A stretch of 64,000 bases of DNA, taken from the NCBI RefSeq assembly GCF_000526375.1, contig NZ_JAFY01000005.1:496001-560000 (forward strand), read 5' to 3'. Made by a program: the position numbers and the translations under genes. The DNA comes from Aminiphilus circumscriptus DSM 16581 (GTDB lineage: Bacteria; Synergistota; Synergistia; Synergistales; Aminiphilaceae). Shown in pieces: positions 30,418 to 49,969 of the stretch. The notes beneath the pieces were generated by a model that was given only the letters and a program-made list of their open reading frames with translations, did no database searches and was not told the origin of the DNA. Position 1 is the first letter of the stretch; each line of letters opens with the position of its first letter.

Positions 30418-30441
30418 GTACGTCTCCCCCTTCCCTCGTGC

Positions 30442-32686: not shown

Positions 32687-33109
32687 CTAGGACTGCACTT
32701 CTTTCGCCCTTTTCTCCTCCACCGCTTTCCGAAGCCACTCGATGCTCTCCGTCGTGGGCGTCCCCGGACCGAAGACCGCTCCTGCGCCCATCTCCAGAAG
32801 GCTCGGCACGTCATTTTCCGGAATGACGCCGCCGCCGAAGACAATGATGTCCTCCGCGTTCCGCTCCTTGAGCATGTCGATGATGGTGCGGAAATAATGT
32901 TCGTGCGCTCCGGAAAGGATGCTGATGCCGATGGCGTCGGCGTCCTCCTGGATCGCCGTTTCGACGATCTGTTCCGGAGTTTGGCGAAGACCGGTATAGA
33001 TGACTTCCATGCCCGCATCTCGGAACGCACGGGCAATGACTTTCGCACCGCGGTCGTGCCCGTCCAGGCCGGGTTTGGCAACAACCACGCGGATCTTTCT
33101 TTCGCTCAT
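32687..33109 (-). CDS. methylmalonyl-CoA mutase cobalamin-binding subunit
   Basis: The 140-aa stand-alone B12 domain has DGHDRGAKV, whose His replaces the dimethylbenzimidazole ligand, SILSGAHEHYF and the glycine-rich VFGGGVIPEND. It assembles with the large subunit encoded 66 nt upstream. The split two-gene form is common in anaerobes and archaea. No MeaB/ArgK chaperone gene or cobalamin riboswitch was seen near it in this window. Confidence 0.93.
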   Translation of the reverse strand: MSERKIRVVVAKPGLDGHDRGAKVIARAFRDAGMEVIYTGLRQTPEQIVETAIQEDADAIGISILSGAHEHYFRTIIDMLKERNAEDIIVFGGGVIPENDVPSLLEMGAGAVFGPGTPTTESIEWLRKAVEEKRAKEVQS

Positions 33110-33175
33110 GGCTTCTCCTCCTCCATGCGTCGCTTTTTCGAATTCAGGATCGAAACATCCGCGAAATCCGGGAAT

Positions 33176-34861
33176 TTAGAGAACGATGTTCTCCCGATAT
33201 TCGCCGAACTCCTCGCGAAGCACGCCGCAGATCTCGCCCTCCGAAGCATAGCACCGGACGGCATCGAGAATAAAGGGCATAAGGTTCGTTCCCTCGTCCC
33301 GAGCGGCTTTCCGGATGTCTTCGAGAGCCGCTTTGACCTTCAGGTTGTCACGACCAGCCTTGACTGCATTGAGTTTCGCGACCTGACGCACTCCAACGCT
33401 GGGATCCACGCGGAGGAGTTCGCGACCGGAATTATCTTCCTTGATCTGGAACTTGTTGACACCGACCACCACCGCATCGCCACTCTCGACGGCTCTCTGG
33501 TAGGCATAGGCCGCATCCTGGATCTGCTGCTGCACATACCCCTTTTCGATGGCCACGAGCATACCGCCCATCTCATCGATTTTCTCTATATACTCCAACG
33601 CCTGCGTTTCGAGGGTCTTCGTCAGGGCTTCGATGTAATAGCTCCCGGCAAGGGGATCCACGGTGTTGCAGACGCCGGATTCATAGGCAATGATCTGCTG
33701 CGTCTTCAGGGCAATGCCGACACTCTTCTCCGTCGGAAGGGCGAGAGCCTCGTCCATGCTGTTCGTGTGCAGGGACTGCGTTCCGCCGAGAACCGCAGCG
33801 AGGGCCTGGAAGGCCACACGGATGATGTTGTTCTCGGGCTGCTGCGCCGTGAGCGTGCTGCCTCCGGTCTGCGTGTGGAAACGGAGCATCATCGCCTTGT
33901 CGTTGGTGAGGCCGAAACGCTCCTTCATGATCTTCGCCCAGATACGCCGGGCAGCTCGGAACTTGGCCACTTCCTCGAGGAAATCGTTATGGGCGTTGAA
34001 GAAGAAGGAAAGCCGCTCGCCGAAGACGTTCGGATCCTGCCCCTTCTTGATGGCCGCGTCCACATAGGCGATACCGTCGGCGAGGGTAAAAGCGATCTCC
34101 TGGGCTGCGGTGGAACCTGCTTCGCGGATATGGTACCCGGAGATGGAAATGGTGTTCCACTTGGGAACGTGATTGCTGCAGAAGGCGAAGATATCCGTGA
34201 TGAGACGCATGGAAGGCTTGGGGGGAAAGATATACGTACCCCGAGCGATGTATTCCTTGAGGATGTCATTCTGAATGGTTCCGCCCAACTTGTCCGCCGA
34301 AACGCCCTGCTTCTCGCCAAGAGCGATATACATGGCCAGCAGAATCGAGGCGGGAGCGTTGATCGTCATGGATGTGGTGACCTGATCGAGGGGAATCTGG
34401 TCGAAGAGGATCTCCATGTCCGCCAGGGTATCGACGGGCACACCCACCTTGCCGACCTCTCCCTGAGCCATGGAATGATCCGAATCGTAACCGATCTGAG
34501 TGGGCAGATCGAAAGCGACGGACAGTCCCGTCGACCCCTGGGAAAGAAGATACCGATACCGAGCGTTGGAATCCTCCGCCGTGGAGAAACCGGCATACTG
34601 GCGCATGGTCCAGAATCGCCCACGGTACATATTAGGCTGGACACCCCTCGTAAAGGGGAAACTTCCGGGCATTCCCAAATCTTCGAGGTATTCGAGATCC
34701 TTGATATCGTCGGGAGCATAGACCGTCTTCACGGGGATGCCGCTCCCCGTCGCAAACACTTCCCGCTGTTCGGGTCGTTTCTGTCGCAACTTCTCCATCC
34801 GCGCCTCGAAGGCCTGTTTCTCCCTCTCAATCCTTTTGAGCGCTTCCTCCTTGAACACCAT
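33176..34861 (-). CDS. methylmalonyl-CoA mutase large (catalytic) subunit
   Basis: The 561-aa TIM-barrel subunit rearranges succinyl-CoA to (R)-methylmalonyl-CoA using adenosylcobalamin held by the small subunit. Family blocks include [15 protein letters not shown], the QYAGF motif, [30 protein letters not shown]-like sequence (here starting with TISISGYHI) and [16 protein letters not shown]. It is the first gene of a seven-gene operon. GGGAGGGG precedes the ATG, and a promoter candidate lies about 150 bp upstream. Confidence 0.94.
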
Positions 34862-35008
34862 AATTCCCCTCCCTTAAATCTGCGTCGCGAAGGGCCTCCC
34901 GGGTCCGCCTCGCTCTCCGTCGCACCGACACCCTGTTCCCGAAACATCCGAAAAATGTTCTGTGGTCTCTGGCAACGGACAATCCTGCACGCACGTATAC
35001 GAGACCTT

Positions 35009-35037
35009 ATTATTCTCCAGGCGGCTCCGGAATGCAA
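35009..35037 (-). promoter_or_regulatory. candidate promoter of the mutase-decarboxylase operon
   Basis: TTGCAT (35032-35037) and AATAAT (35009-35014) on the minus strand are 17 bp apart. The implied leader to the ATG at 34861 is about 140 nt. The remaining 34862-35341 interval holds no recognised gene and no cobalamin riboswitch signature. Confidence 0.45.
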
Positions 35038-35341
35038 CAAGGGACTCTCGTTTACACGATAATTACCCATAATTCAGTTTATTTTATTCCCTACGTTTTC
35101 CCCGCCGCTGTGCTTGCACATCACCTGAATGCCTCTGCCGACCGGCGGGAATGAAGGCATCATACACCAGATTTTTCATTCCCGGCGAGATCCTGGAAAT
35201 TTCCGCCCAGACGGTTTTGTGGTATCATGAGTCTGAAGGCCCAAGTCCATTTCTCCGACATGCACCCGCTCTTTCCGATAAAGAGAGGGGAAAGTGTGGG
35301 TTTTCTGTTTGCAAGCCTTTTCGGACGGGGAGGTCTCGACT

Positions 35342-35698
35342 ATGGAAATGATCACCTGCGATCTCTGCGCCAAGCCCTTTGCCACGACAGGGCCGAAAAT
35401 CTGTCCTCGATGCATGAAACGGCTTGATGCCGTGTACGAAAAAGCCCGCGCCTTCATGAGGGACAATCCCGACGAGTCGCTGGACGTGATTCGCCTTGCA
35501 GATCAGATTTCCGAGGACGTGCGCGATCTCGAGATGCTCGTGCAGATGGGGCGTTTCGACCGGGACGTCTCAGGCCCTGCCGTGGAAGATCGTCGTAAAA
35601 AACAACTTCTGGAGGAACTGCGGAAGAACCTTTCCGAGAAATCCGGTGAAGGCAAGAAATACGTATCCTACGGGGAGGAACGGTACGGCAAGCGCTGA
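35342..35698 (+). CDS. YvyF-like flagellar operon protein
   Basis: The 118-aa protein has a zinc-ribbon-like N-terminus (CDLCAKPF then CPRCMKRL) and a helical region, matching the TIGR03826/YvyF type found with flagellar regulator genes such as flgM. Its exact role is unknown in the family. The ATG at 35342 has GGGGAGG about 8 nt upstream. No flagellar structural gene is adjacent here. It is convergent with the flavodiiron gene and originally shared its terminator. Confidence 0.7.
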   Translation: MEMITCDLCAKPFATTGPKICPRCMKRLDAVYEKARAFMRDNPDESLDVIRLADQISEDVRDLEMLVQMGRFDRDVSGPAVEDRRKKQLLEELRKNLSEKSGEGKKYVSYGEERYGKR

Positions 35699-35753
35699 CA
35701 AACCGTCCTGCCGGCATTTTTTCTACTACACCATCTCTCCCCGATCCCACGCC

Positions 35754-35807
35754 GCACGGAACCCCTCTTCGGGAGCAATGTTCAGCGCCCGAAGAGGGGT
35801 TCCGTGC
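35754..35807. terminator. 20-bp-stem terminator hairpin cut by the IS1634 target duplication
   Basis: GCACGGAACCCCTCTTCGGG pairs with its exact complement across a 14-nt loop. It stood between the convergent yvyF-like and flavodiiron genes. The duplicated target begins at the inner end of the left arm (35769-35774), so the second copy at 38183 keeps only the right arm. Confidence 0.75.
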
Positions 35808-36036
35808 TTTGTTCGAATGGATGTGCTCTTCTCCGTCTAGAGTGCGGCGGCGATGTTCCTTCCCAACTCCCGGCAACTCTCGAGATCTTCCTGGGTAGGC
35901 GCCGAACAGACTTCTACATGAGGCCCCACGATCTCCCAATCCCCTTTTTCGCCGAACTGGAGCAGGGCCGCCAAGGCACCCTTGCTCCAACTGTAGGAAC
36001 CGCAGATGCCGAGAACACGGTTTTTCAGCATCTTGT
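35769..36036. repeat. 268-bp direct repeat, left copy (target duplication)
   Basis: This is identical to 38183-38450 except for one T/C difference (ACAGACTTCTA versus ACAGACCTCTA). The repeats border the IS1634-type element exactly. The first five bases could belong to the IS end, so the duplication is 263-268 bp. Confidence 0.9.
35837..36036 (-). pseudogene. orphan 3' end of the flavodiiron protein gene
   Basis: It encodes the last ~66 residues of the flavodiiron protein (NRVLGICGSYSWSKGALAAL to the end NIAAAL) with no start of its own. It is the left copy of the target duplication. The complete gene lies on the other side of the IS. Confidence 0.9.
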
Positions 36037-36192
36037 CCCGACTTCGCCGTTTTTCCCGAGAAAACAAGGATTTTGAAAAAAGGGATGCAGTGTTCATGGG
36101 GGTTCAGAAGATCGGGAAGCCGGAAATCAAAATGTAGTGCCTAGCATATTTGCCCTATTGACATATTGTCTTTCTCCGGATATACTCCTTTC

Positions 36193-37992
36193 ATGTATAT
36201 CCGGGTGAAATCCTCAAAGCTCAGTCCGCGAAAATCAGTCCAGATCGTCAAATCCGTCCGTACCGGGAAACGGGTCTCCCAGGTCATTCTCCAGCACGTG
36301 GGAATAGCCCACGACGAGAAGCAGCTCTCCGAGCTCCGGGAACTGGGGCGGAAGCTCATTCTGGAGATGGAGGAGAGAGAGCAGCCCTCTCTTCCGGGGT
36401 TCTCCCTCCTCGAGAACGAAGAGGCGTGGGAGCGGCCGGTCGGCGACGGGGAGCGGGTCAGCCTCCGGGGGATGAAGAACCTGGAACAGGTGACGGAAGG
36501 GCCTGGGGAAGTCGTGGAGAGCCTGTTCTCCTCCCTGGGCTTCGAGGCGATCTTCGGGGTATCCAACCGGGGGAAGGGGAACACGGAAGTCCTGAAGAAA
36601 TGCCTCGCCTGCGCCCTCGCCAATCCTTCGAGCAAGCGGGGGATGTCCCGTTGGCTGGAGGACGAGGGCGGGACGGACATGTCGCTGAACAGGATCTACC
36701 GAATGATGGACGCCCTGGCGAAGAAGACGGACCGGGTGAGGGAGATCGTGGCGCGGGAGACCGCGTCCCTCTTCGAGACGAAGGCGTCGCTGCTGCTCTT
36801 CGATGTGACCACCCTCTATTTCGAAAGCGTTGAGGCGGATGCCCTGAGGGTGTCGGGGTACAGCAAGGACAACAGGATACAGGAGACCCAGGTGGTGCTC
36901 GCCCTGGCGGTGACGCCGGAAGGATTTCCCCTCTGGTACGACCTTTTCCCGGGAAACACCTTTGAAGGGCATACTCTTGTGCCTGTGCTCAGGAGATGCA
37001 TGGAGACCTTCTCCCCCCGGCAGGCGGTGGTGGTGGCGGACCGGGCCATGTTCACGGAAGAGAACCTGCACGAAGTGGAGAAGGCGGGATGCTCCTTCGT
37101 CGTGGGAGCGAAACTCCGGGGTCTCAGCCGGACCATGAGGGAGAAAATCCTGGACGCCGGGAACTACTCCCCCCTGCCCGGAGATTCGCCTGTCTTCCCG
37201 GAGGGTGAGAGAGAAACGTGCAGCCCTTCCCGTTGGTACTCCGTCCCCCTCGAAAACGGGAGAAATTTGCTCGTCACCTGGAGTGAACAACGAGCCCGGA
37301 AGGACGCCTCCGACCGGGAACGGCTTCTGGCCCGCCTGCGGAAAAAACTGCAGGGGAAGAAGGCTCTTCCGGGAAAAAGCCTTGTCACCAACCGGGGAAC
37401 GAACAAATACCTCTCCCTTGAAAATTCAAACGGACAGGACCGCTACATCCTGGACGAAGAGAAGATCCTCCGGGACAGCCGGTGGGACGGCCTTCACGGA
37501 GTCATCACCAACCTGCCCGTGGAAAGTGCCGCGGAAGCGCAGGAAATCCTCGCCCATTACGGGAGCCTGTGGCGCATCGAAGAATCCTTCCGGGTGAACA
37601 AGCACGACCTCTCCATCCGCCCTGTCTATCACTGGGTACCCCGCAGGATCGAGGCCCACATAACCCTCACCTACCTCGCCTTCGCCCTCCTCCGGCATCT
37701 CCAGCACCGAGTGGCGGTCCGGCAGAACGCGGTGATGAGCGCCCGGGCCATCCGGACCGCCCTGCTGGATGTCCAGTCCACCCTCATGAAGGACGAAGAG
37801 ACGGGGAAACTCTACCGGTTCCCGAAGGCCATGAGCGAGAGCGCCCGGAAGATCTACCGTTCCCTGGGCCTCGTCCGGGGACTGGGGAACACGGAGATCC
37901 TGTCGGTGAGGAAATACAGGAACCGGAAAGGGATCCGGAGCGCCGGGACGGACGGAGACGGAACAGCGGGGGAAGGGACGGGCAGGAACTGA
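36193..37992 (+). CDS. IS1634-family transposase
   Basis: The 599-aa IS4-superfamily transposase has an intact DDE core: LFDVTTLYFES (Asp), VVADRAMFTEEN (Asp) and, after a long beta-strand insertion, YGSLWRIEESFRVNKHDL with the Y-2-R-3-E-6-K pattern. The ATG at 36193 gives MYIRVKSS, the usual family start; it has no strong ribosome binding site. No disruption was seen, so it could be active. The C-terminal tail is basic and Gly/Thr-rich. Confidence 0.92.
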   Translation: MYIRVKSSKLSPRKSVQIVKSVRTGKRVSQVILQHVGIAHDEKQLSELRELGRKLILEMEEREQPSLPGFSLLENEEAWERPVGDGERVSLRGMKNLEQVTEGPGEVVESLFSSLGFEAIFGVSNRGKGNTEVLKKCLACALANPSSKRGMSRWLEDEGGTDMSLNRIYRMMDALAKKTDRVREIVARETASLFETKASLLLFDVTTLYFESVEADALRVSGYSKDNRIQETQVVLALAVTPEGFPLWYDLFPGNTFEGHTLVPVLRRCMETFSPRQAVVVADRAMFTEENLHEVEKAGCSFVVGAKLRGLSRTMREKILDAGNYSPLPGDSPVFPEGERETCSPSRWYSVPLENGRNLLVTWSEQRARKDASDRERLLARLRKKLQGKKALPGKSLVTNRGTNKYLSLENSNGQDRYILDEEKILRDSRWDGLHGVITNLPVESAAEAQEILAHYGSLWRIEESFRVNKHDLSIRPVYHWVPRRIEAHITLTYLAFALLRHLQHRVAVRQNAVMSARAIRTALLDVQSTLMKDEETGKLYRFPKAMSESARKIYRSLGLVRGLGNTEILSVRKYRNRKGIRSAGTDGDGTAGEGTGRN

Positions 37993-38080
37993 ACGAGCCG
38001 GGAGCAGATCTCCTGTTCACCTTTCGCAATACCTTTCGGAGCCCCGAGACACGGTGAGACCGAAAAATCCGCCTCAAACG

Positions 38081-38118
38081 ACAGCCCCTCTTTTCACAGA
38101 ATTGAAAAGAGGGGCTGT
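38081..38118 (+). terminator. terminator inside the IS1634 element
   Basis: ACAGCCCCTCTTTTC pairs with GAAAAGAGGGGCTGT across an 8-nt loop, 89 nt past the transposase stop. It may also slow transcription running through the element toward neighbouring genes. Confidence 0.6.
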
Positions 38119-38182
38119 GTAGTGCCCACCCAAGATGCACTTTCCGGTGTTTGCAAGGCTTCCCGTTTCAAACCCGGCGAAG

Positions 38183-38450
38183 TCGGGAGCAATGTTCAGC
38201 GCCCGAAGAGGGGTTCCGTGCTTTGTTCGAATGGATGTGCTCTTCTCCGTCTAGAGTGCGGCGGCGATGTTCCTTCCCAACTCCCGGCAACTCTCGAGAT
38301 CTTCCTGGGTAGGCGCCGAACAGACCTCTACATGAGGCCCCACGATCTCCCAATCCCCTTTTTCGCCGAACTGGAGCAGGGCCGCCAAGGCACCCTTGCT
38401 CCAACTGTAGGAACCGCAGATGCCGAGAACACGGTTTTTCAGCATCTTGT
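38183..38450. repeat. 268-bp direct repeat, right copy (target duplication)
   Basis: This copy holds the true 3' end of the intact flavodiiron gene (stop at 38251) and the right arm of the former terminator hairpin. Confidence 0.9.
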
Positions 38451-39438
38451 TCTGCAGTGCCGACGTGAGGGCCTGCATTGGCGGAAAAAGTTCCGTGTTG
38501 TACGTACAGCTGGCGAGCACGAGTCCGCGAAATTTCCAGATGTCGCGGATGACAAAAGAGACATGGCTCCGGGAAATGTCGTGAAGAATGACTTTTTCGA
38601 TCCCCTCCTCGGCAAGGGCCCGAGCGATTTCCTCCGCCATGGCTTTGGTATTGCCGTACATGGAACCGTAGACTACCACAACGCCCTTTTCCGCCTCATG
38701 ACGACTCCACTTGTCGTAAAGATCCACCACGTGCCAAGGGTGTTTTCTCAGGATCGGACCGTGAGCGGGAGCGATCACATTCAGATCGAGTGTGCGCACC
38801 TTCTTGATCGCCTTCTGGACCTGAAAGCTGTAGCGCCCGACGATGTTCGAGAAATAGCGAAGGATTTCATCCTCGTAGTAGGACATGTCCACTTCGTCGT
38901 CGAAGACACCGCCGTCCAGAGAGCCGAATCCTCCGAAGGCATCGGAGGAGAAGAGGACCTTGTCCGTCTCGTCGTAGCAGACCATGGTCTCCGGCCAGTG
39001 CACCATGGGAATGAAATGGAAACGGAGTTTGTGTCTTCCCAAGTCGAGTTCCTCTCCGTCCTTGACGACGAGAAAATTCTCGGTGAGGCCGTAGAAATTG
39101 GCGAGCAGATCCTTTGTCTTCGCGTTCCCCACAATGGTCACGTCCGGAAAGGATTCCCGAAGCACCTTGACAGCCCCTGAATGGTCAGGTTCCATGTGGT
39201 TGATCACGAGATAGTCTATCTTCCGCCCCTTTCCCAAAATGGAACGAATTTTCTCGAGGAATTGCGGGAAATAGCCGTTCTTTACCGTGTCGATGAGGGC
39301 AGTCTTTTGATCCGCCACGCAATAGGTGTTGTAGGACACGCCCCTTGGAAGAGGCCAAATGGCCTCGAAGAGGTCCGTCTCCCTGTCGTTCACGCCGATC
39401 CAGTGGATATCCTTCGTGATGGCAATACCGCCGTGCAT
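38251..39438 (-). CDS. fprA: flavodiiron protein (A-type flavoprotein, O2/NO reductase)
   Basis: The 395-aa cytoplasmic protein has an N-terminal metallo-beta-lactamase-like diiron domain (about 1-245) with HMEPDHSG and further ligands in VHWPETMV and the APAHGP region, and a flavodoxin domain (about 250-395) with YGSMYGNTKAMAE binding FMN. Such enzymes reduce oxygen to water or NO to N2O in anaerobes. The gene is whole only because the IS insertion duplicated its last 200 bases. Its original terminator hairpin is now on the far side of the element. Confidence 0.93.
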   Translation of the reverse strand: MHGGIAITKDIHWIGVNDRETDLFEAIWPLPRGVSYNTYCVADQKTALIDTVKNGYFPQFLEKIRSILGKGRKIDYLVINHMEPDHSGAVKVLRESFPDVTIVGNAKTKDLLANFYGLTENFLVVKDGEELDLGRHKLRFHFIPMVHWPETMVCYDETDKVLFSSDAFGGFGSLDGGVFDDEVDMSYYEDEILRYFSNIVGRYSFQVQKAIKKVRTLDLNVIAPAHGPILRKHPWHVVDLYDKWSRHEAEKGVVVVYGSMYGNTKAMAEEIARALAEEGIEKVILHDISRSHVSFVIRDIWKFRGLVLASCTYNTELFPPMQALTSALQNKMLKNRVLGICGSYSWSKGALAALLQFGEKGDWEIVGPHVEVCSAPTQEDLESCRELGRNIAAAL

Positions 39439-40452
39439 GCCTCCAACCTCCTCGCCTTACCCTTTCATCCTGCCCAGTTCGTGCACTCCAGAAACGCGCA
39501 GGACCGAACGCCAACGATCGCCTAAATCTTTCCAGAATAAAACACTTCTTGTCTATTATAGAGCACGTTTTCCTTCAGGAAAACGCAGAAACCTTGGACA
39601 AAAGCCTCCTTGGCCGTGTCTGAAGGTTTTGAACCTTCTTTGCGAAAACCGAGAAAATCCAAACACCTTCCCGGCCCCGGATGAAAGTGGTTAAGGCCTT
39701 TGCGGGGCTTACGTCAGCGTCGCCTTAAGACCATTGAGTGGTCGGTCATGGGGAAGAAGTCGCAGGAGATCATCTTTGTTACCCTGTATCCCAGGGGGAC
39801 TAGCTGGGCTAAATTCCTGGAAAGGGTCGAGGCGGCGCAAGATAGATAGACTATGCGCCATGCCCTGACTCTCCCAGCATGCTCAAAACCTTAGCCTCCA
39901 TGCCGGACCTCGGGGAGTTTGCGTAAACAAGGCGGTTTTCAACCGGGAAAGACTTTAGGAAATCCGCTCTCTGGGGAACTCTCTGGGCGTAGGTCCCCTG
40001 CAGCAGCAACGAAAAAGGGGAGTTGATGCCCGCCATCTTCAAGGACATGGATGGCACCTTGATCCCCAGGGTGGATGCCCCGTGAGAGCTGACTATAGCG
40101 CCAAGGATGCCCCGTCGCCACAGTAGAGGCCGCCACCCCCTTGTGTTGGGATGGGCGCAGGAAAGAGACCACATCCCTGTGGTCAGAGAGGCCCTTATAT
40201 CCCATTCCTCCTTCAAGCGAAGACCCTCTTCGTAGGGTATGCCTTTAAAGCACCGGCACTGGTCCGGGCACCCCGTACGGCTCATGGCCTTCGCCCTGGC
40301 CTGCCGGAAGGCAGGTGTATCCCCTTGTGGAAGCAATATATCCTTGAGGCGGTGGTTATTATCATGCATGTTCAACAACAAGGAGTCTATCATAAAATGG
40401 ATTGGATTTTACCGTTCCGGCCTTTGGTGCGGAGTTGTGGAGGTGTGGGGTA
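39439..40452. other. 1-kb gene-poor stretch, probably decayed foreign DNA
   Basis: No intact gene could be supported. One short plus-strand frame (about 39686-39850) ends as a plausible C-terminus (MGKKSQEIIFVTLYP ... RVEAAQDR), and minus-strand frames around 39851-40393 look protein-like but break between frames. Codon choice changes near 39.7 kb, so the left border of the foreign island probably lies here. Confidence 0.4.
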
Positions 40453-41676
40453 TTGGAATCGGACGTCTTGATAAGGATTGACGGCAAGCCTGTGGCGGCG
40501 GTGAAGGACGGGGTCCTTGCGGATCCATCGGAGGCCTTTGTGGGGAACTCCGCGGCGGAAAGGATCGAGAATTACCACGGGGGATTTTCCGTAATGCCCG
40601 GAGATTTCAACGGGCACAGCCATCCGGAGCAGTCCGTTTACGCCGAGATAGTGGAAGAGGGGTGGGATCTTGCAACCTGGTGCAGGAGGACCATATACGC
40701 TCACAGCGTCCACATGACCCCTGAGCTGGTTTACTTAAGCTGCCGCAGGGCATTTGGCCGCATGCTGCTGAACGGCATAACCTCCGTTGCGGTTTCCTTC
40801 TACTGCCATAACCGCATGGGCAACGCCCTGGACCGCGAGGTCATAAAAGCCGCACTGGATTCGGGCATTAGGATCCTGTTCGGAAGGATGAATTACGATG
40901 TGCTGTCCGAGGACGCGTACCCTAAGAAGCGGGCTTCCCAGGAGAGCTACTTCGAAGGCCCCTATTACGAGAATCATCTCATATCCCTCATGGAGGAGTT
41001 CAAGGGCCTTGCGGGGGTGCAGGTTGCCCCTTCCCTTCACAGCTTTCACGCCAATACGTTGGGTGCCATAGCAAGGGCGCTGGAGCTCGCCTCGGAGCTC
41101 GACTCGCCGCTTCAGTTCCACCTTTCGGAGGATAAGGGAGATGTGGATCTCTGCCTGGACCTCTATGGAGAACGGCCAGCCTTCGTGCTGGCCCGGCTTT
41201 TGGAGAAAACTGGCCCCGTAAGGCTCCTGCTTTCCGATTGCATATGGTTGTCTCAAGAGGAGAAGGACCTAATCGGTCAAATGGGAGCCTCGGTGGTCTT
41301 GAACCTTAGAATGAACCACCGAATGAAGGTGGGAACCCCTGACCTGCCGGGCCTGCTTGAAAGGGGGATTCCGGTTTACCTTGGCACCGATGGAGAGGCC
41401 AGCAACTATGGCCTTAGCATACGAGAGGAGCGGGATTTTACCCTTGAGCGCTTTGGCGTGTCAGTTCCGCTTATACCGTTTAACATGAGGTGCGGCAATG
41501 TGGGGTCCATGGAGATTGGTGCCATGGGGGACCTTAAGGTTATGCATGACAGACGGGTATGGGACGTCTTTGCAGGAGGGCGTAAGGTGGTTTCCCAAGG
41601 TAAACTTTTGACCATGGACCTTGAGGCGGTGGAGGAGCGCATCAGGGAGATGACGTCGAGTTGGGATGTGTTGTGA
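40453..41676 (+). CDS. amidohydrolase-superfamily enzyme (SsnA/chlorohydrolase-like)
   Basis: The ~407-aa TIM-barrel metal hydrolase has the N-terminal metal site GHSHPEQS, an internal HSFHA, a metal His in LQFHLSEDKG and the catalytic Asp in LGTDGEASN. It probably deaminates or hydrolyses a cyclic or amide-containing small molecule; substrate unknown. The start is unsure: TTG at 40453 has GGAGGTG 8 nt upstream, while a longer frame from 40402 lacks a site. Codon use (AGG Arg, ATA Ile) differs from the rest of the window. The thioesterase follows after 35 nt. Confidence 0.75.
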   Translation: MESDVLIRIDGKPVAAVKDGVLADPSEAFVGNSAAERIENYHGGFSVMPGDFNGHSHPEQSVYAEIVEEGWDLATWCRRTIYAHSVHMTPELVYLSCRRAFGRMLLNGITSVAVSFYCHNRMGNALDREVIKAALDSGIRILFGRMNYDVLSEDAYPKKRASQESYFEGPYYENHLISLMEEFKGLAGVQVAPSLHSFHANTLGAIARALELASELDSPLQFHLSEDKGDVDLCLDLYGERPAFVLARLLEKTGPVRLLLSDCIWLSQEEKDLIGQMGASVVLNLRMNHRMKVGTPDLPGLLERGIPVYLGTDGEASNYGLSIREERDFTLERFGVSVPLIPFNMRCGNVGSMEIGAMGDLKVMHDRRVWDVFAGGRKVVSQGKLLTMDLEAVEERIREMTSSWDVL

Positions 41677-41711
41677 TAAAATAAAAGGGTAAAGTCAAAG
41701 GGGGCGATACA

Positions 41712-42116
41712 ATGGATCTGAAAGATATCCTGTCGCTGGGTACCGTAAAGAGGCTGGTGAAAAAGGTGTCCACCTCTGATACGGTGGGCAACAAGTCGGA
41801 GGCGCTGGAGGAGTTCCTTTCAACCGCCGCATGTCTTGAGGCCATGACCCAGTTGGCGGTGGAGCTGCTGGACCCCAAGCTTCCTGAAGGGGTGATATCG
41901 GTTGGGATCATGTCGCACGTTGAAAACCTGGCCCCTGCGGTCTTGGGGGATGATGTGGTATTTACCGTTTCCCTTGACAATGTGGAAGGCAACCGGGTGT
42001 TTTTCTCCATGACCGCCAGCGACATGTACGGTCCTGTGGCAAAGGGGAGCCAGGAGCGAGCGGTCGTTCACGTGTCCGCACTGGAGCGAAAGGTGGCGGA
42101 ACGGCAGGGCCGTTAG
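41712..42116 (+). CDS. hotdog-fold thioesterase (FlK-like)
   Basis: The 134-aa single hotdog domain has the helix EEFLSTAACLEAMTQLAVELL, split by the family's usual turn, then GVISVGIMSHVENLAPAVLGD and the closing strand GSQERAVVHV. Relatives hydrolyse small acyl-CoA thioesters. It is downstream of the amidohydrolase with the same foreign codon use, and the ATG at 41712 is preceded by a purine-rich stretch. The pair may process one substrate, but no pathway can be named. Confidence 0.7.
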   Translation: MDLKDILSLGTVKRLVKKVSTSDTVGNKSEALEEFLSTAACLEAMTQLAVELLDPKLPEGVISVGIMSHVENLAPAVLGDDVVFTVSLDNVEGNRVFFSMTASDMYGPVAKGSQERAVVHVSALERKVAERQGR

Positions 42117-42232
42117 GTTTTGCCTGGACAACCCTCGCTGATGCTATTTGAAGGAAGACAGAAGGCTTGGTTCCCAAAGGAAAACAGGGAGCTTTTGATA
42201 ATGCCTTTGTTTGACTTGTTGTGAAAATTGAC

Positions 42233-42708
42233 TCAACCCAAACACAAGAGAGGCCTGTGGAGGAAAAGTGATTCCGACACGGGCCTCTTAGTGTAGACAA
42301 GTTTACATAACATGGACATGGGCCGTCTCCATGCACTGGAGCAGAAGGGAGGAGACATCGATCTGAAGACGAGCGTATAGCCTGTCTCGTCCTCCGACCT
42401 CGACCGCGTGAAGGTGATCCCGTGATCCGCGCAGAACCGAGTCAGGTGATGGTTGATGAACTCGCTTCCGTTGTCGGAATCGAGCCCCTTCAAGGGGAAG
42501 GGGAGCCGGTCCATGAGAGCGGGGAGGGCCTCCAGCACCCATTCCTGAGCCCGGTTCGGCAGGGCATGAAGCTCGGTCCAGCCGGTGGCCACGTCCGTGA
42601 GGGTCAGCGTGTAGGCAAAGTCCCTGGACGCATTTCCGCCGTCGTGGCTTCCCAGGTTCATCTCCATGAACCCGATCCCTGCTTCGTTCCAGTCGGCAAA
42701 GGTGCATA
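42233..42708 (-). pseudogene. truncated integrase-type (rve) transposase
   Basis: The frame encodes a catalytic core piece with SHDGGNASRDFAYTL, TDVATGWTEL and DSDNGSEFIN (two catalytic acidic residues), then leaves the family sequence after GITFTRSR, so the part with the third residue is missing. The N-terminal half is missing too because the fragment stops where the TRAP remnant begins at about 42709. It is a dead remnant that also marks where the TRAP gene lost its 5' half. Confidence 0.75.
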
Positions 42709-43630
42709 GATGAAGGGGTTGCCTGAGGACGAGGTGCCGCCTCTTTCCAGGACCATGAAGGAAAGAGGGCACATGATACTACCCTTGGCCTTCATACTAT
42801 ACATGCTTGTGGCCGGTTATACCCCGCTTTTCTCCGCCATGGCGGGACTGGTGGCTATAATAGTGGTCTCCTCTTTGAGATCCACCACCAGGATGAGCCT
42901 TAAGGACGCCAAGGGAGCCCTGGAGGCGGGGGCCAAGAGCTCCGCATCGGTGGCAGTGTCCTGCGCCATAGTGGGATTTATCGTGGGGGCGGTTGGGATG
43001 ACTGGCCTGGGGCAGGTGATAGCCATGAACATAATGCACCTCTCCGGCGGGATGCTTTGGGCATCGCTTTTGCTTTGCATGGTGGCGTCAATAGTGCTTG
43101 GGATGGGGCTTCCCTCCACCGCCTGCTACATAGTGGTGGCCACCATCGCCGCCCCGGCCCTTCAAGGGATGGGGGGCCTCCCCTGGCGGCCCACTTCTTC
43201 GCCTTCTACTACGGCACCCTTTCTGGGGTTGTCCCCCCCGTTGCGCTTACCAGTTTCACCGCCGCAGGACTCTCGGGGGGGACGTCCCTCCAAGGTGGCC
43301 CTTATGGGACTCTTCCTTGCCTCTTCGGGGCTCATACTTCCCTTCTTTTTCGTTTACAACCCGGTGCTTCTGCTGGTGGACTTCTCCTGGCTTAAGTTCC
43401 TGGAGGTGTTTGCCGTTGCCGCCATGGGTATACTGCTCCTCTCCTGCGCGTTCATCGGCACCGGGCTTTCTGATATGACATGGTGGGAGAGGGTTTTGTT
43501 CCTGGTATCCGGGGTGGTGATGGTTTACCCCAAGGGGACAGGCTTTAAGGTGGCTATTGTGACGGTCGCGGTTACCGCCTCCCTACACTGGCTGCTCACG
43601 GTCAGGAGAAGATCCCTCCAGTTGTCATGA
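42709..43630 (+). pseudogene. TRAP fused-permease remnant, truncated and frameshifted
   Basis: It corresponds to the C-terminal half of a fused TRAP permease like the one at 3279-5267. KGLPEDEVPPLSRTMKERGH aligns with its cytoplasmic loop, and GMGLPSTACY is the conserved turn. Around 43170 one base is lost and around 43290 one base is gained; between them about 44 codons are read in the wrong frame, while the +2 frame there gives the expected AAHFFAFYYG and PPVALTSFTAAG. With no N-terminal half it cannot work as a transporter. Codon use matches the amidohydrolase island. Confidence 0.85.
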
Positions 43631-43667
43631 TGTCATAAGACCTTTTGCGTGCCTTTTTAAAAAATAA

Positions 43668-43768
43668 GGAATCTCTGAATAAGACTATGTCAGCCCCGCA
43701 GGGCGCCTCGCAGAGTCTGATGCGGCCCGGGGCAAGGGAAAGCGAAAGGTCTTTATTCAGAGCTTTCC
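43668..43768 (-). repeat. MITE copy 4
   Basis: A 101-bp copy runs from GGAATCTCTGAATAAG to TTTATTCAGAGCTTTCC. It is more diverged in the core (TGATGCGGCCCGGGGC). No clean target duplication is visible. It lies at the right border of the foreign island, 24 bp before the thiT promoter. Confidence 0.82.
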
Positions 43769-43791
43769 TAGATCAAACCTGAAAAGTCCGC

Positions 43792-43821
43792 TTGACAGAA
43801 AATGTACCTGGAGGAAATAAT
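43792..43821 (+). promoter_or_regulatory. promoter of the TPP riboswitch-thiT transcript
   Basis: TTGACA (43792-43797) and AATAAT (43816-43821) are separated by 18 bp. The expected start of transcription falls at about 43828, exactly where the riboswitch begins. Confidence 0.7.
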
Positions 43822-43828
43822 CGAACCT

Positions 43829-43918
43829 GCCCGGGGGGAGCTGTGTTTCCGGCTGAGAGGTGGCTTTTCGCCCGACCCCTGGAACCTGATCCGGTTTGTA
43901 CCGGCGGAGGGAACGGGC
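43829..43918 (+). ncRNA. TPP (thiamine pyrophosphate) riboswitch
   Basis: The conserved elements appear in order: closing stem GCCCG, GGGGGAGC, GGCTGAGAGG, the CGACCC junction, GAACCTGATCCGG, ACCGGCGGAGGGAA and CGGGC completing P1. This class turns off thiamine synthesis or uptake genes when TPP is plentiful. Between it and the GTG start, CTTCTCC (43968-43974) can pair with GGAGAAG just before the ribosome binding site, suggesting translational control. Confidence 0.9.
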
Positions 43919-44017
43919 ATGGAGCGAAACCGATACGGTCTCAACCATCCTACCGGAATACCCTTTTCTTCTCCCGCCGACCGGAGAAACCCGCATGGTG
44001 CGGAGAAGGAGGAAACT

Positions 44018-44551
44018 GTGTATTCCAAAGAGGACCAACGCACTCGAATTCTGGTGGAGGGAGCCGTGCTGTGCGGACTTTCGGTGGCGCTTTCCTACGT
44101 AAAACTTTGGCAATTGCCTCAGGGCGGTTCCATCACCCTTGAAAATCTGCCGCTTTTTATGTACGCCTATCGCCACGGATTGAAAGCGGGAGTGCTCGCC
44201 GGAGGGATGTCCGGACTTCTGCAACTGTCGCTCGGAGGCTACATGGTACACCCTATCCAAGCGCTTTTGGACTATCCGCTGGCCTTTGCCGCTCTGGCTT
44301 CGGCATCTTTCGTCCGCAAACCCTTTTGGGCAGGACTCGCCATCGGCACCTTCGCCCGGTTTCTCTGCCACTTCCTTTCGGGCGTCGTTTTTTTTGCAAG
44401 CTATGCTCCCGAAGGGACGCCCGTATGGCTCTATTCCGCCATCTACAACGGGAGCTTCATGGTTCCCGCGCTCGTTCTGAATATCGCCCTCGGCCATTTC
44501 CTCCTGCCTCGGCTTGCGCGTCTTCCCGGCTGGAGTAAGGCGGGGCATTGA
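44018..44551 (+). CDS. thiT: ECF transporter thiamine-binding S component ThiT
   Basis: The ~178-aa protein has six membrane helices and the ThiT block GGSITLENLPLFMYAYRHG followed by LGGYMVHPIQALLDYPLAF, which forms the thiamine pocket. It needs a shared ECF energizing module, not encoded in this window. The GTG at 44018 has AAGGAGG 6 nt upstream and lies about 100 nt after the TPP riboswitch, which confirms the substrate. The CheX-like gene follows after 52 nt. Confidence 0.9.
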   Translation: MYSKEDQRTRILVEGAVLCGLSVALSYVKLWQLPQGGSITLENLPLFMYAYRHGLKAGVLAGGMSGLLQLSLGGYMVHPIQALLDYPLAFAALASASFVRKPFWAGLAIGTFARFLCHFLSGVVFFASYAPEGTPVWLYSAIYNGSFMVPALVLNIALGHFLLPRLARLPGWSKAGH

Positions 44552-44603
44552 ATACGGATCAGGTGGCAAGACGCCCCTGTTTCCCTGAGGAGGGTTTTTC
44601 CCG

Positions 44604-45119
44604 TTGAAACAGGACAAACGGTATATAGGGCGTCTCCATTCACTCGTCAACGCCTTTGGCGTGAGCATGATCAAGATCAGTGAAAAAGTGGGCGTATCGC
44701 TGACCTTCAACAAAGGGGGCGTCTGCCTCGGTATCAACGCGCCGGGGAGCCGGGTGGCGGCACTCCTCTCCCTCTACGGAGAAGGGGCTCATGGAACGAT
44801 CACCTTCTTTCTCAGCGAAAAAGCCTTCGCGTCCTACGTGAACGGAATGACGGGAGGCATGCTCTTTCCGGATCCGGAAGAACCCGTCGCGGTGAGCGTG
44901 GCAGGCGAACTCGCCAATATGGTGAGCGGAAACGCCCTGACCACTTTGAGTGAAAGAGGCTTTTCCGGTCTGGACATCACGCCGCCTCAACTCTTCGTCG
45001 GCACCAACATCAAGTCCCTAAAGCTACCCGAGGACAAGATGGACACGTTTACCCTCCCGTTTTATGTCGGAAACGACCGAGAGAGCATCGTCCACCAAGT
45101 ACTTCTCTTCCGAAAATGA
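44604..45119 (+). CDS. CheX-like chemotaxis phosphatase, second copy
   Basis: The 171-aa paralogue of the protein at 137-622 shares NAPGSRVAALLSLYG, the FASYVNGMTGGM block and the phosphatase signature SVAGELANMVSG plus TPP. The start is a TTG at 44604 with GAGGAGGG about 11 nt upstream. It follows thiT and could be in the same transcript, an odd partnership. A strong palindrome ends it. Function follows CheX by motif; its partner is unknown. Confidence 0.7.
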   Translation: MKQDKRYIGRLHSLVNAFGVSMIKISEKVGVSLTFNKGGVCLGINAPGSRVAALLSLYGEGAHGTITFFLSEKAFASYVNGMTGGMLFPDPEEPVAVSVAGELANMVSGNALTTLSERGFSGLDITPPQLFVGTNIKSLKLPEDKMDTFTLPFYVGNDRESIVHQVLLFRK

Positions 45120-45200
45120 GCGTTCCCTCGCTTTTCAGCGATACGACCGGTAAAGTCGTTCGGGGGGATCCTGCGTTTTCCCCACCTTCCACAATAAAAA

Positions 45201-45238
45201 CAAAGAAGGGAAAGGCCCGCGGGCCTTTCCCTTCTTTG
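45201..45238 (+). terminator. 38-bp perfect palindrome after the CheX-like gene
   Basis: CAAAGAAGGGAAAGGCCCG is followed by its exact complement. It lies 82 nt past the stop, upstream of a MITE. The inner part is G/C-rich, and the distal arm ends in TTCTTTG. Confidence 0.65.
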
Positions 45239-45286
45239 GTGTGCACGCCTTCCTTGAAAATCTTCGCTCAAAAACGCATATTCCTG

Positions 45287-45386
45287 GGAATCTCTGAATA
45301 AGGCTGCGTCAGCCCCGCAGGGCGCCTCGCAGAGCCTGATGCGACTCGAGTCAAGGGAAAGCGAAAGGTCTTTATTCAGAGATTCC
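45287..45386 (-). repeat. MITE copy 5
   Basis: A 100-bp copy has near-perfect inverted ends GGAATCTCTGAATAA and TTATTCAGAGATTCC. CCTG occurs on both sides (45283-45286 and 45387-45390), a clean 4-bp target duplication. It ends 8 bp from the pssA stop codon. Confidence 0.9.
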
Positions 45387-45393
45387 CCTGTTC

Positions 45394-46134
45394 TTATCCC
45401 TCGCGATGCTCCACCTCGGCATTTCCATCCACTTCGAGGCTGAGCCATGCTCCCCAATCGAAACGGAGAAGGCCACTCGCCACGTAGAGAAGGATTCCCG
45501 CAAGGGGGGCCTTTTCTCGAAGCGTGATGAACAGCACCGCCACAAAGGTCGTGAGGAAGGTCACTTTCATCCTGTTGACATTGCCTTTCCGCAGTTTCTT
45601 CAGGTTGCCATAGGGAACCGTCGATACCATGAGGATCGCCGTTCCCACGGTGATGAGCGCCATTACCAGAGGCGGCAGGGAGAATTCCGCCATGGCGAAG
45701 GAAGCGACGAAAAGCCCTCCCGCAGGAATCGGAAGTCCCTGAAAGGAACCCGGCACGTGCATGACGTTGAAGCGGGCGAGCCGCAAGGCGCCGCACAGCG
45801 CGAAAAACGCTGCGACAAGAGCTCCCGTGACGCCGAGAAAGCCGTGCAGGTACGCCCCATAGACGATCAGGCCCGGCGCAACGCCGAAACTGACCACGTC
45901 GGCAAGGCTGTCAAGCTCCATGCCGAAGGCGCTGCTGCCTCCGAGGCTTCGAGCCATTTTCCCGTCCATGTAGTCGAAAAAGACCGCGGCGAAAACCAAC
46001 CACGCTGCGGGAACGAATTTCCCGTGAATCACCATGACCAGGGACAACATACCGCAGAGAAGGTTGCCGCTGGTAATCATGTTGGGAATAATCTTCGTGA
46101 AGGGAACACCTCGAACGTGCCTATTCTTTTTCAT
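45394..46134 (-). CDS. pssA: CDP-diacylglycerol-serine O-phosphatidyltransferase
   Basis: The 246-aa membrane enzyme makes phosphatidylserine. It carries the CDP-alcohol phosphotransferase motif D-G-x2-A-R-x8-G-x3-D-x3-D, seen as DGKMARSLGG then FGMELDSLAD, near the N-terminus, and about seven helices. The gene starts 14 nt inside the end of psd, which encodes the next step. A MITE sits just past the stop and may now shape the mRNA 3' end. Confidence 0.92.
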   Translation of the reverse strand: MKKNRHVRGVPFTKIIPNMITSGNLLCGMLSLVMVIHGKFVPAAWLVFAAVFFDYMDGKMARSLGGSSAFGMELDSLADVVSFGVAPGLIVYGAYLHGFLGVTGALVAAFFALCGALRLARFNVMHVPGSFQGLPIPAGGLFVASFAMAEFSLPPLVMALITVGTAILMVSTVPYGNLKKLRKGNVNRMKVTFLTTFVAVLFITLREKAPLAGILLYVASGLLRFDWGAWLSLEVDGNAEVEHREG

Positions 46135-46750
46135 TGCGTACCACCCCCAGAGCCGTCTCGCCGGCCTTCACCTTCTGTCCGACCGATACGACGCAACGCA
46201 CGGCGGAGGGGAGATAAAGATCGACTTTTGAACCGAATTGTATCATCCCGTATCTTTCGCCTCGGGTCAAGTGCTGCCCTCGACGAGCCCTGCAGACGAT
46301 ACGGCGGGCCAAAAGCCCCGCAATCTGCACGACCAGTGCGGGCCCCGCCGCAGTCTCCATTCCCAGACAAAAACGTTCGTTCTCCGCGGACGCTTTGGGA
46401 CCGTAGGCCACCCATTTCTTTCCAGGCATATACTGAAGATACGTCACTTCTCCGTCCCAGGGGACACGATTCACGTGTACATCCAAGGGGGACATGAACA
46501 CGCCCACGCGCGTCGCCCTCCCCGTGAAGGGATGCTCCGTCACCTCCACTTCAACCACTCTGCCATCCGCAGGACTCACCCACAGAGCCGGATTCTCCGG
46601 AGGCCTTCTCTCGGGGTCCCGATAAAACCACAGAAGAAAACACAACACGGCAAGAAACACCGCAGACAGAGCGGGAGAGACGAACCATCCCCCGAGGGAC
46701 ATGAAGAGCATTCCTCCGATGGCGGGCAGGCCCTCCCTTGCAATGCGCAC
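46121..46750 (-). CDS. psd: phosphatidylserine decarboxylase
   Basis: The 209-aa proenzyme matures by self-cleavage at the Gly-Ser of FGSKVDLYLP, leaving a pyruvoyl group that decarboxylates phosphatidylserine to phosphatidylethanolamine. SPADGRVV and SPLDVHVNRVPWDG are family blocks, and the N-terminus has a membrane segment. The GTG at 46750 uses an AGGAGG site that is coded by the Glu codons at the end of gyrA, 4 nt upstream. It overlaps pssA. Confidence 0.92.
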   Translation of the reverse strand: MRIAREGLPAIGGMLFMSLGGWFVSPALSAVFLAVLCFLLWFYRDPERRPPENPALWVSPADGRVVEVEVTEHPFTGRATRVGVFMSPLDVHVNRVPWDGEVTYLQYMPGKKWVAYGPKASAENERFCLGMETAAGPALVVQIAGLLARRIVCRARRGQHLTRGERYGMIQFGSKVDLYLPSAVRCVVSVGQKVKAGETALGVVRNEKE

Positions 46751-46753
46751 GGC

Positions 46754-49204
46754 CTATTCCTCCTCTTCTTCTTCGGCACGGATGATGCTTGCGTCGGCCA
46801 CCTCATCCCCCTCGTCGAGGCGGACCACGATCGGTCCCGTCGCCTCTCTGCTCAGGATCGGAATATCCTCCGCCGCCAGACGCACCATGCGTCCCCGGTT
46901 GGAAATGAGCAGAATTTCGTCCTTTTCGGCGGCACCCCAGGAACCCACGAGAAGCCCCGTCTTGGCTCCCAGGCGCATGGCGCGTACCCCTCCACCGCCG
47001 CGATGATGGGGAGTGAATTCCTCAAAGGGCGTCCGCTTGCCGAGCCCTTTTTCATTGATCAGCAAAAGATCCGTTCCGGCCTGCACCACATCGCACCCGA
47101 CCACGACATCGCCTTCGTCCAGGCGGATGCCCCGCACGCCCCTGGCCTGCCGCCCCAGAGGACGGAATTCGTTTTCGGGGACCCGGAGGGCTTGCCCGGA
47201 AGCGGTGACGAAGAGCAGATCCTCCTCACCGGAGGTGCACCGAACTCTCGCGATGGCATCTCCCGAATCCAGCGACAGGACCCGCCGCCCTGCCCTGGTG
47301 ATGTTCTCCAGCTCCGTCACGGGCATGCGCTTCGCCACCCCCTGGCGCGTGATGAAGAAGACGAACCGTGCTCCGGAAAGACGGCTGTCTCGGAGAGCCA
47401 CCACCTTCTCGTCCTCTTCGAGCGAGATGAAGGAACTCACGGGCTTTCCCTTTCCGGACCTCGGCTGGGGAATCATGTGTCCCCGGATGGCAAAGACCCG
47501 CCCCTTGGTGGTGAAGAGGAAGAGATCCCGATGCGTGGTGGTGACGGTCACGAGAGAAATCTCGTCCTCTTCCTTGGGCGTCGCTCCCTTCACGCCCTTT
47601 CCGCCCCGATTCTGCAGGCGGTATTCCTCGAGCATCATCCGGCGCAGATAGTTGTCCCGGGAAAGGACAACCACGATTTCTTTCTCCGGAATGAGATCCT
47701 CCATGGAGACATCTTCCATGGCATCCAGAATCTCCGTCCTCCGGGGGTTGCCGAAACGCGCCTTCACATCCTCGATCTCTTCCTTCACGACCCCGTCGAG
47801 CACCTTGGGATTCGCGAGGATGGAGCGGTACATCTCGATGTCACCGAGGAGTTGCGCATATTCTTCCTCCAGCTTGTGGCGCTCCAGACCGGTGAGGCGC
47901 TGCAGGCGCATGTCGAGAATCGCCTGAGCCTGCGGCTCGGAGAATCCGAGACGATCCGTCAATCCCTGGCGGGCCTCGTTCGGATCCTTGGACCCGCGCA
48001 CCACCGCGATGACCTCTTCGATGATATCCAGTGCTTTAAGTAACCCCTCCACGATATGCGCTCTCGCCTCGGCCTTGCGGAGGCGGTAGGCGGTGCGCCG
48101 GCGGACCACGTTGCGACGGTGGGAGAGAAACACCTTGAGCATCTCCAGGAGCGGCAATTCCCTCGGCTGGCCGTCCACGAGAGCCAGATTGATGACGCCG
48201 TAGGTGGTCTGGAGTTGAGTCCGTGAATAAAGCTGCCGCAACGCCACCTGGGAATCCATATCCCGATTGACCTCGAGAACGATGCGCAGCCCTCTGCGAT
48301 CCGATTCATCCCTGATGTCGGTGATGCCATCCAGGTGTTTTTCCTGAACGCCTCTGACAATCGCCTCTATGAGGTTGGTCTTGTTCACCATATAAGGGAT
48401 CTCGGTGATGACAATGGCTTTTTTCCCCCGCTTGACATCCTCGACGTGGGTCTTGCCGCGGACGGAAATTCTGCCGCGGCCCGTCCGGTAGGCCTCGACG
48501 ATACCGTCCCGGCCGAGAATCTCGCCTCCCGTGGGAAAGTCGGGACCGGGCAGAAAATGCAGCAGTTCTCCCAGTTCCACGTCCTCATGATCGAGCATGT
48601 AGCAGAGCGCGTCCGCCACCTCCGTGAGGTTGTGGGGGGGTATGTTCGTGGCCATCCCCACGGCGATACCCGTGGAACCGTTCACGAGGAGATTTGGAAT
48701 GCGCGAGGGAAGCACCAGCGGCTCCTTGAGAGAGTCGTCGAAGTTCGGCCCCCAGTCAACGGTTTCCTCGTCGATATTCTCGAGCATTTCCTCCCCCAGG
48801 GCGGAGAGGCGTGCCTCCGTGTAGCGCATGGCTGCGGGAGGATCCCCGTCGATGGAACCGAAATTTCCCTGACCATCCACGAGGGGATAGCGCATGCTGA
48901 AATCCTGGGCCAGGCGAGCCATGGTATCGTAAATCGCCGAATCGCTGTGGGGATGGTACTTTCCCATGGTCTCTCCAACGACGCGGGCGGATTTCTTGTA
49001 GGCTTGATTGTGGCGAAGCCCCAGTTCGAGCATGGCGTAGAGCACGCGACGCTGAACCGGCTTGAGACCGTCCCGTGCATCCGGAAGAGCGCGACCGACA
49101 ATGACGCTCATGGCGTAATCGAGGTAGCTGTGCTTGATCTCCTCTTCCAGAGGCAGGGGAACCACCGTGCCGAAATCCAATCGGCCACCCAACAGTTCCG
49201 ACAT
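46754..49204 (-). CDS. gyrA: DNA gyrase subunit A
   Basis: The 816-aa subunit contains the breakage-reunion domain with the active-site Tyr in [11 protein letters not shown] and GDPPAAMR before it. Its C-terminal beta-pinwheel starts at the GyrA box [10 protein letters not shown], which separates gyrase from topoisomerase IV. It ends in a run of Glu codons. The ATG at 49204 has GAGGAACG upstream. It forms the first gene of gyrA-psd-pssA; gyrB is not in the window. Confidence 0.95.
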
Positions 49205-49311
49205 GAACGTTCCTCCTCGTTTCCTCACCGCGGTTTTTCCGCACGGAACGACGACAACCGATTTTTGGTGAAGAAAGGGCCTTCACCTCTCGTTTTCCGT
49301 CGCATCGAACG

Positions 49312-49343
49312 TACAAAAAGAGAAAAACGACGGAAATCCGTCG
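49312..49343 (-). terminator. terminator between nitroreductase and gyrA
   Basis: CGACGGA pairs with TCCGTCG across a short loop, and on the minus strand TTTTTCTCTTTTT follows. An extended -10 (TGGTATAAT, minus strand, 49369-49377) lies upstream of it, so it could instead act as an attenuator in the gyrA leader. Confidence 0.6.
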
Positions 49344-49405
49344 CTTTTCGCGCTTGGATCAATATCTCATTATACCACGTACACTCGTCGTTCTTCTTTC
49401 GGAGG

Positions 49406-49933
49406 TTACCAACCGTTCCAGTGTGCCGCGCCCTCGTCGATTCCTTCGTGAGGCTCCTTCACTTCGTCGGGATAGCCGAGGACAGCAATCCCGAGAACGG
49501 AAATTGCTCCGGGAATACCGAGAATCAGCCGAAGCGCCTGTTCTCTCTCGGGAGAATGGTGGACCCCAAGCCAAACACTCCCCAGATCGAGAGCTTTGGC
49601 CGCCACAAGGATGTTCTCCATGGCAGCGGAACAATCCTCCTCCCAATAAATCCGTGCAAATTCGTTCTTTTCGGGTTCGCCGCAAACCACGATTGCGAGG
49701 GGCGCACGAAAAAGCATCTTCCCGTAGGGGTGCGCCCCCGCAAGTGCATCGAGCTTCGCCCGATCATCCACCACCACGAAATGCCATGGCCTGCTTCCTG
49801 CCGCCGTCGGAGCCGCGCAGGCGCACTCCAGCAGCAGGTCGATCTTTTCCCGTTCCACCGGCTGAGAAGTGTATTTCCGAATGCTGCGTCTCCCAAGAAT
49901 GGCGGCAACGGCCGCATGCTCCCGCATGGACAT
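49406..49933 (-). CDS. nitroreductase-family FMN oxidoreductase
   Basis: The 175-aa flavoprotein has the FMN-binding start RRSIRKYTSQPVE, PTAAGSRPWHFVVV and the C-terminal VLGIAVLGYPDE block. It probably reduces nitro compounds, quinones or a specific metabolite with NAD(P)H; substrate is unknown. AAGGAGGAAG precedes the ATG at 49933. It follows the folate transporter gene by 36 nt, probably in one transcript, and ends at a hairpin terminator. Confidence 0.85.
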   Translation of the reverse strand: MSMREHAAVAAILGRRSIRKYTSQPVEREKIDLLLECACAAPTAAGSRPWHFVVVDDRAKLDALAGAHPYGKMLFRAPLAIVVCGEPEKNEFARIYWEEDCSAAMENILVAAKALDLGSVWLGVHHSPEREQALRLILGIPGAISVLGIAVLGYPDEVKEPHEGIDEGAAHWNGW

Positions 49934-49969
49934 ATCCTCTTCCTCCTTGTTTGTCGTTTGTCTGTTCGC

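Follow-up and report, generated by a model that had tools for sequence, protein, structure and literature searches.

The 64,000-nucleotide stretch of the Aminiphilus circumscriptus DSM 16581 genome analysed here (the window; positions 496001 to 560000 of contig C5, itself 678,472 bases long, in a genome of 3,223,212 bases and 7 contigs) carries a short mosaic of gene remnants around two whole genes, for an amidohydrolase and a thioesterase. The original prediction, made from the sequence alone, had described a foreign, decaying island at 39690-43660, and these limits proved nearly exact: Thermanaerovibrio-type DNA spans 39738-43653 (~3.9 kb), except for one stretch without a match (42124-42388). 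Every matching piece is nearest to Thermanaerovibrio, which belongs to a different family of the host's order, at 85–90% nucleotide identity to the nearest of the three genomes compared: T. velox Z-9701 (G038), T. acidaminovorans Su883 (G016) and a further genome of the genus (G178).

The left 632 bp of the island are the remnant of a reverse-strand RlmD/RumA-like 23S rRNA methyltransferase gene, which had been overlooked. Its 3′ part (39738-40163) is 84.6% identical in nucleotides to G178 and 77.4% to T. velox, and its 5′ part (40174-40369) 84.7% to G178 (as far as 40368) and 73.2% to T. velox (over 40164-40369). A deletion scar follows at 40370/40371, where ~550 bp present in G178 and T. velox, comprising most of a UPF0126-type gene (PF03458), are missing. 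The intact amidohydrolase gene (40453-41676, TTG start) and the intact gene for an FlK-type (hotdog) thioesterase (41712-42116) then lie on the forward strand within one match (40371-42114) of 87.6% to G178 and 83.4% to T. velox. Beyond the unmatched 265 bp comes a piece from the interior of a donor-type transposase gene, with an rve domain (42389-42708, reverse strand; 90.0% identical along its 320 bp to T. velox G038:C1:432555-432874). The last piece is a TAXI-type tripartite ATP-independent periplasmic (TRAP) fused permease gene reduced to its C-terminal half (42709-43653, coding part to 43630, forward strand; 87.9% to G178, 83.5% to T. velox). Matches to PF01979, PF22636 and TIGR02123 confirm the open reading frames (ORFs) previously read as amidohydrolase, thioesterase and TRAP remnant; the transposase fragment was likewise read correctly, its donor-type character having been missed.

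The closest DNA, a tree of the amidohydrolase and codon use all point to Thermanaerovibrio, which bears out a foreign origin. When the island was searched for across 180 genomes of the host's order, 79 matched it somewhere, the three Thermanaerovibrio genomes most strongly. At the protein level, the amidohydrolase is 84% identical to that of T. velox, and the TRAP protein 82% to Thermanaerovibrio. In the nearest host relatives among the genomes compared, G001 (same genus), G002 and G003 (same family), the best amidohydrolase relatives reach 26, 30 and 28% amino acid identity and the best TRAP relatives 37, 37 and 49%, so the best matches lie in another family rather than in the same genus with conserved synteny. 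The native CheX protein provides a yardstick, with 97% identity to G001 and 45–46% to T. velox and T. acidaminovorans. At the nucleotide level, the longest matches of other DNA from the window (32001-52000) to these two species are of 64–74% identity, compared with 83–90% for the island in T. velox.

In a tree of 31 rows, the window amidohydrolase joins the three Thermanaerovibrio rows with support of 100/100; within these it falls with T. velox and G178, leaving T. acidaminovorans outside (97/96), and its grouping with G178 alone is weaker (87/77). This nesting inside Thermanaerovibrio speaks against the view that these genes were ancestral to the order as a whole and that the relatives have lost what the host retained, as do the 84 and 82% protein identities set against 45–46% for native CheX, the different place and gene order, and the foreign codon use. 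Although amidohydrolase relatives of 48–56% amino acid identity do exist in other families of the order, we regard the chance of such inheritance as close to negligible.

Codon use was scored as a donor/host log-likelihood ratio per codon, trained on ORF sets from the material itself: 46 window ORFs outside the island, each scored by leave-one-out, and 38 donor-locus ORFs from which orthologues of island genes had been removed. Scores were positive in 4/4 island pieces (amidohydrolase 0.066, thioesterase 0.018, two TRAP pieces 0.308 and 0.109) and in 38/38 donor ORFs, and negative in all 46 host ORFs, the highest of which was −0.061 for the IS1634 transposase; the separation is not a chance effect. 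A cruder ORF set, which contained some wrong-strand ORFs (e.g., 46238-48043, opposite gyrA), gave the same signs, with 5/5 island pieces above zero, 32/32 host ORFs below and 41/43 donor ORFs above. Of the codons named in the original prediction as marking the island, AGG (fractions of 0.107, 0.461 and 0.405 in host, donor and island), ATA (0.056, 0.629 and 0.611) and CTT (0.215, 0.200 and 0.363, above the donor sample too) are indeed enriched, whereas CTC is depleted (0.431, 0.239 and 0.137), the reverse of the claim. Plain G+C content does not set the island apart. The suggestion of a thermophilic Synergistota-type donor also held, Thermanaerovibrio being the genus found; PMC3910556 gives a growth range of 45–70 °C for T. 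velox. Among the papers found for Synergistetes, horizontal gene transfer and Thermanaerovibrio together, no title or abstract opening names the island.

We therefore consider it very likely, on comparative sequence grounds, that the island was acquired horizontally from a Thermanaerovibrio species not yet sampled and has since decayed. Several observations weigh against this. No donor genome is nearer than 90%, and T. acidaminovorans matches the island at only 66–80% (71% across the amidohydrolase and thioesterase genes, 80% in TRAP and 66% over a 189-bp methyltransferase stretch). The codon scores of the amidohydrolase and thioesterase are lower than those of most donor genes (median 0.178); the T. 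velox amidohydrolase is itself codon-weak, at 0.072 in the cruder set. The 265-bp stretch at 42124-42388 has no match in the donor loci and no second copy in the host genome. No empty site could be read in the relatives, as the G001 contig begins 189 bp before the right-flank match and shows no left flank, while the G003 contigs break on both sides of the locus; the relatives G001 and G002 are, moreover, only 81% and 83% complete. As for the classical hallmarks of a mobile island, the window holds no tRNA and the domain and family scans gave only the transposase fragment; neither an integrase gene nor a tRNA attachment site was found.

A contamination estimate of 2.12% for the host genome raises the question of whether Thermanaerovibrio reads were joined to a host contig during assembly. 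The segment, however, sits inside the 678,472-bp contig with a host repeat at its border, and is itself a rearranged and partly deleted mosaic. In addition, two 11–12 kb donor loci (L118 and L119), the only ones with which the host genome was searched, match no other donor-level piece in it, their remaining matches being of 65–77%, plus one 43-bp match at 86%. An assembly artefact is, on this evidence, highly unlikely.

The amidohydrolase, thioesterase and TRAP remnant had been proposed to derive from one transporter-plus-hydrolase unit, acquired as a single functional block and disrupted later. All the pieces do come from one donor genus and stand side by side in the window. The arrangement in the donor genus speaks against the proposal: in T. 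velox, ~204 kb separate the TRAP gene (1464497) from the amidohydrolase gene (1260904), and in T. acidaminovorans ~209 kb do so (401726 and 611155, respectively). Both species have the two genes on one strand with TRAP first, and in G178 the genes occupy different contigs (C10 and C7). In none of the three genomes do the amidohydrolase, thioesterase and TRAP genes stand side by side; nor, in T. velox and T. acidaminovorans, do the island genes lie beside flavodiiron or gyrA genes. We consider a single acquired unit very improbable. As the amidohydrolase precedes TRAP in the window, opposite to the order in both species, a simple deletion between the two loci cannot yield the observed arrangement, and the simplest account of the gene order, judged from these comparisons, would be a rearrangement in the unsampled donor, for instance via copies of an insertion sequence (IS). 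In one version, IS copies after the thioesterase gene and within the TRAP gene would recombine to circularize the ~204–209 kb donor segment or duplicate it in tandem. The succession of thioesterase, IS fragment and TRAP 3′ half is the junction that such recombination would give, and thus fits an IS-bounded rearrangement, but it is doubtful that the window preserves such a junction and that the DNA transferred was amplified or circular.

Decay and disruption, the other part of the prediction, are evident in the broken methyltransferase, IS and TRAP genes. TRAP lacks its 5′ half, and parts of the methyltransferase gene and most of the UPF0126-type gene are gone, while the amidohydrolase and thioesterase genes are whole. 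Between the two methyltransferase pieces a ~481-bp gap opens relative to G178, with small indels besides; the window ORF here (39851-40393) matched no Pfam or NCBIfam model, and the T. velox gene scores 108.3 bits against TIGR00479, below the cut-off of 183.55. The ~550-bp deletion was located by donor coordinates (7171 to 6619 in L118, 11456 to 10905 in L040). The transposase fragment corresponds to approximately residues 173–279 of a 414-residue T. velox protein, and both fall short of the NCBIfam cut-off of 224 for IS481 family transposases (31.5 for the fragment, 43.5 for the full protein). Of the nine genomes compared, T. velox matches this stretch at 90%, G026 (from a different family) at 81% and G050 at 70%; G178 does so over only 32 bp, and the other five, which include G001, G002 and G003, show no match; the host genome holds no second copy. 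A search for the T. velox IS end at 42293-42313 gave no convincing match (7 mismatches in 21 at best).

The TRAP half abuts the IS fragment at 42709 with zero gap and carries two single-base frame disruptions that put ~110 bp out of frame. Its ORF (42710-43630) covers positions 312–609 of 615 in TIGR02123 with 188.7 bits, below the whole-protein cut-off of 320.65, as expected since only half of the protein remains; the intact T. velox gene scores 646 bits and is adjoined by a gene for a TAXI binding protein.

Amid this debris the amidohydrolase and thioesterase frames stay open, and their order is the same in T. velox, G178 and T. acidaminovorans. The amidohydrolase start at 40453 lies within a longer ORF (40402-41676), and the protein scores 91.8 bits against PF01979 (cut-off 25). 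It keeps the histidine/acidic motifs HSHPEQS, HLSED and GTDGE, which occur in 7/7 aligned relatives and which we take to be metal-site motifs of the amidohydrolase superfamily. Its best NCBIfam relative is NF006681 (formimidoylglutamate deiminase, HutF), although HutF equivalog cut-offs are not reached (94 bits vs. 362 for NF006681, 72.1 vs. 413 for TIGR02022). Relatives were found in eight named clostridial or Thermotogota loci; in four of these, all from Clostridium genomes, they cluster with FtcD-, HutH-, FchA- and formate-tetrahydrofolate-ligase-type genes, and the other four do not have this cluster in common with them. In the one Clostridium locus in which these names were tested (L032), FtcD, HutH and the ligase score above their cut-offs, and FchA falls short (204.5 vs. 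275). At a locus from the host's own order (L011), an FtcD gene directly follows the amidohydrolase relative, and the neighbouring genes in the donors resemble, in our reading of their translations, an amino-acid ATP-binding cassette (ABC) transporter. The substrate is probably a breakdown product of an amino acid, perhaps histidine or a related one, which we offer as a lead. The thioesterase belongs to the FlK fluoroacetyl-CoA thioesterase family by its PF22636 score (88.6 bits, cut-off 27), its enzyme activity being a prediction; it probably clears an unwanted coenzyme A (CoA) thioester.

The intact pair has kept the ribosome-binding region of the donor together with 82 bp of DNA upstream, and the two genes may still be made in the host. 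Could the pair be a retained working acquisition, with the remainder as passenger debris? Open frames amid broken methyltransferase, IS and TRAP genes, together with the kept motif residues, argue for it. So does a low dN/dS ratio (omega) on the window branch (three-taxon Nei-Gojobori estimates with bootstrap ranges), at 0.105 (0.046–0.265) for the amidohydrolase and 0.115 (0.042–0.356) for the thioesterase. The control, a TRAP half that is broken and was read in the frame of its relatives, is nevertheless equally low, at 0.065 (0.028–0.115). The low values of the intact genes consequently cannot show use in the host and mostly reflect time in the donor, and intact frames may be due to chance in a young insert; we regard a working pair as possible, though not the favoured outcome. 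As selection is not relaxed even in this surely broken gene, the decay looks recent, and the branch was mostly spent in the donor lineage.

Under transfer followed by decay, the donor DNA would have come in, by uptake or otherwise, as a segment of a few kilobases in which rearrangement around an IS element had taken place or soon would. Non-homologous joining would have placed it in the chromosome, with the flavodiiron gene on one side and the TPP riboswitch, ThiT and CheX genes on the other. Deletions and small indels would then have eroded the insert, and a host miniature inverted-repeat transposable element (MITE) would have landed at the right junction or close to it. This MITE (~43666-43770, forward strand) does form the right border, as had been predicted, and is listed at 41 places in the host genome, this one among them; of 30 loci measured, 28 carry the two terminal repeats, 102–103 bp apart. 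Its target repeat is imperfect (TAA on the left, TAG on the right), so the order of MITE insertion and junction formation cannot be read. A second copy at 45287-45387, between CheX and the next gene, is 90% identical to the copy at 43668 and has a 3-bp target repeat; it is a recent insertion, since the same-genus genome G001 is uninterrupted there.

On the left, the IS1634 copy proposed as part of the border is not itself the border, a native flavodiiron protein gene lying in between (38251-39438, reverse strand, intact; PF19583/PF00258; 74% amino acid identity to same-family G003; host-like codon score of −0.155). Native DNA extends to at least 39452 by its match to G003, which places the left border between 39452 and 39738. 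On the right it resumes at 43783 (92% nucleotide identity to G001), with a thiamine pyrophosphate (TPP) riboswitch (43824-43930, forward strand; RF00059, 66 bits vs. gathering 54.3), the forward-strand ThiT ORF behind it (43802-44551, TIGR02357) and, beyond ThiT, the native CheX gene.

Two further features lie to the left of the island. The IS1634-family element (transposase at 36166-37992; NF033559, 335 bits vs. cut-off 100) lies between two identical direct repeats of 268 bp (35769-36036 and 38183-38450) that contain the 3′ end of the flavodiiron gene. These fit the long, variable target duplications of IS1549 and IS1634, for which PMC2266710 gives 8–514 bp and states that no mechanism had yet been put forward. 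Separately, 24081-27108 and 28690-32001 both match one region of a same-family contig (L102) at 72–74%, a pattern that suggests a local duplication.

The island is ordinary as a case of transferred genes in decay, though well documented here, and can serve as a worked, base-level example of inter-family transfer within one order in which the thermophilic donor genus can be named and the debris has not yet faded. Decaying islands of this kind are common, and the present one cautions that adjacent genes in an island need not form a functional unit.

Among known systems, HutF and COG0402-type amidohydrolases are the best NCBIfam relatives of the window protein, which nevertheless scores far below the model cut-off and has other genes as neighbours in the donors. 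The DNA of G178 is the nearest for 4/5 matched pieces (85–89%), but its genes are intact on two contigs (C7 and C10) and its match to the IS stretch is just 32 bp. The T. velox loci (G038:C1:1259162-1262576 and 1464497-1465427) hold the same genes in the same local order (methyltransferase, UPF0126-type, amidohydrolase and thioesterase in one, the TAXI-type TRAP gene in the other) at 73–83% nucleotide identity, and elsewhere in its genome T. velox also has the transposase stretch at 90%; unlike in the window, its genes are intact, the two loci lie far apart and the ~480- and ~550-bp stretches are present.

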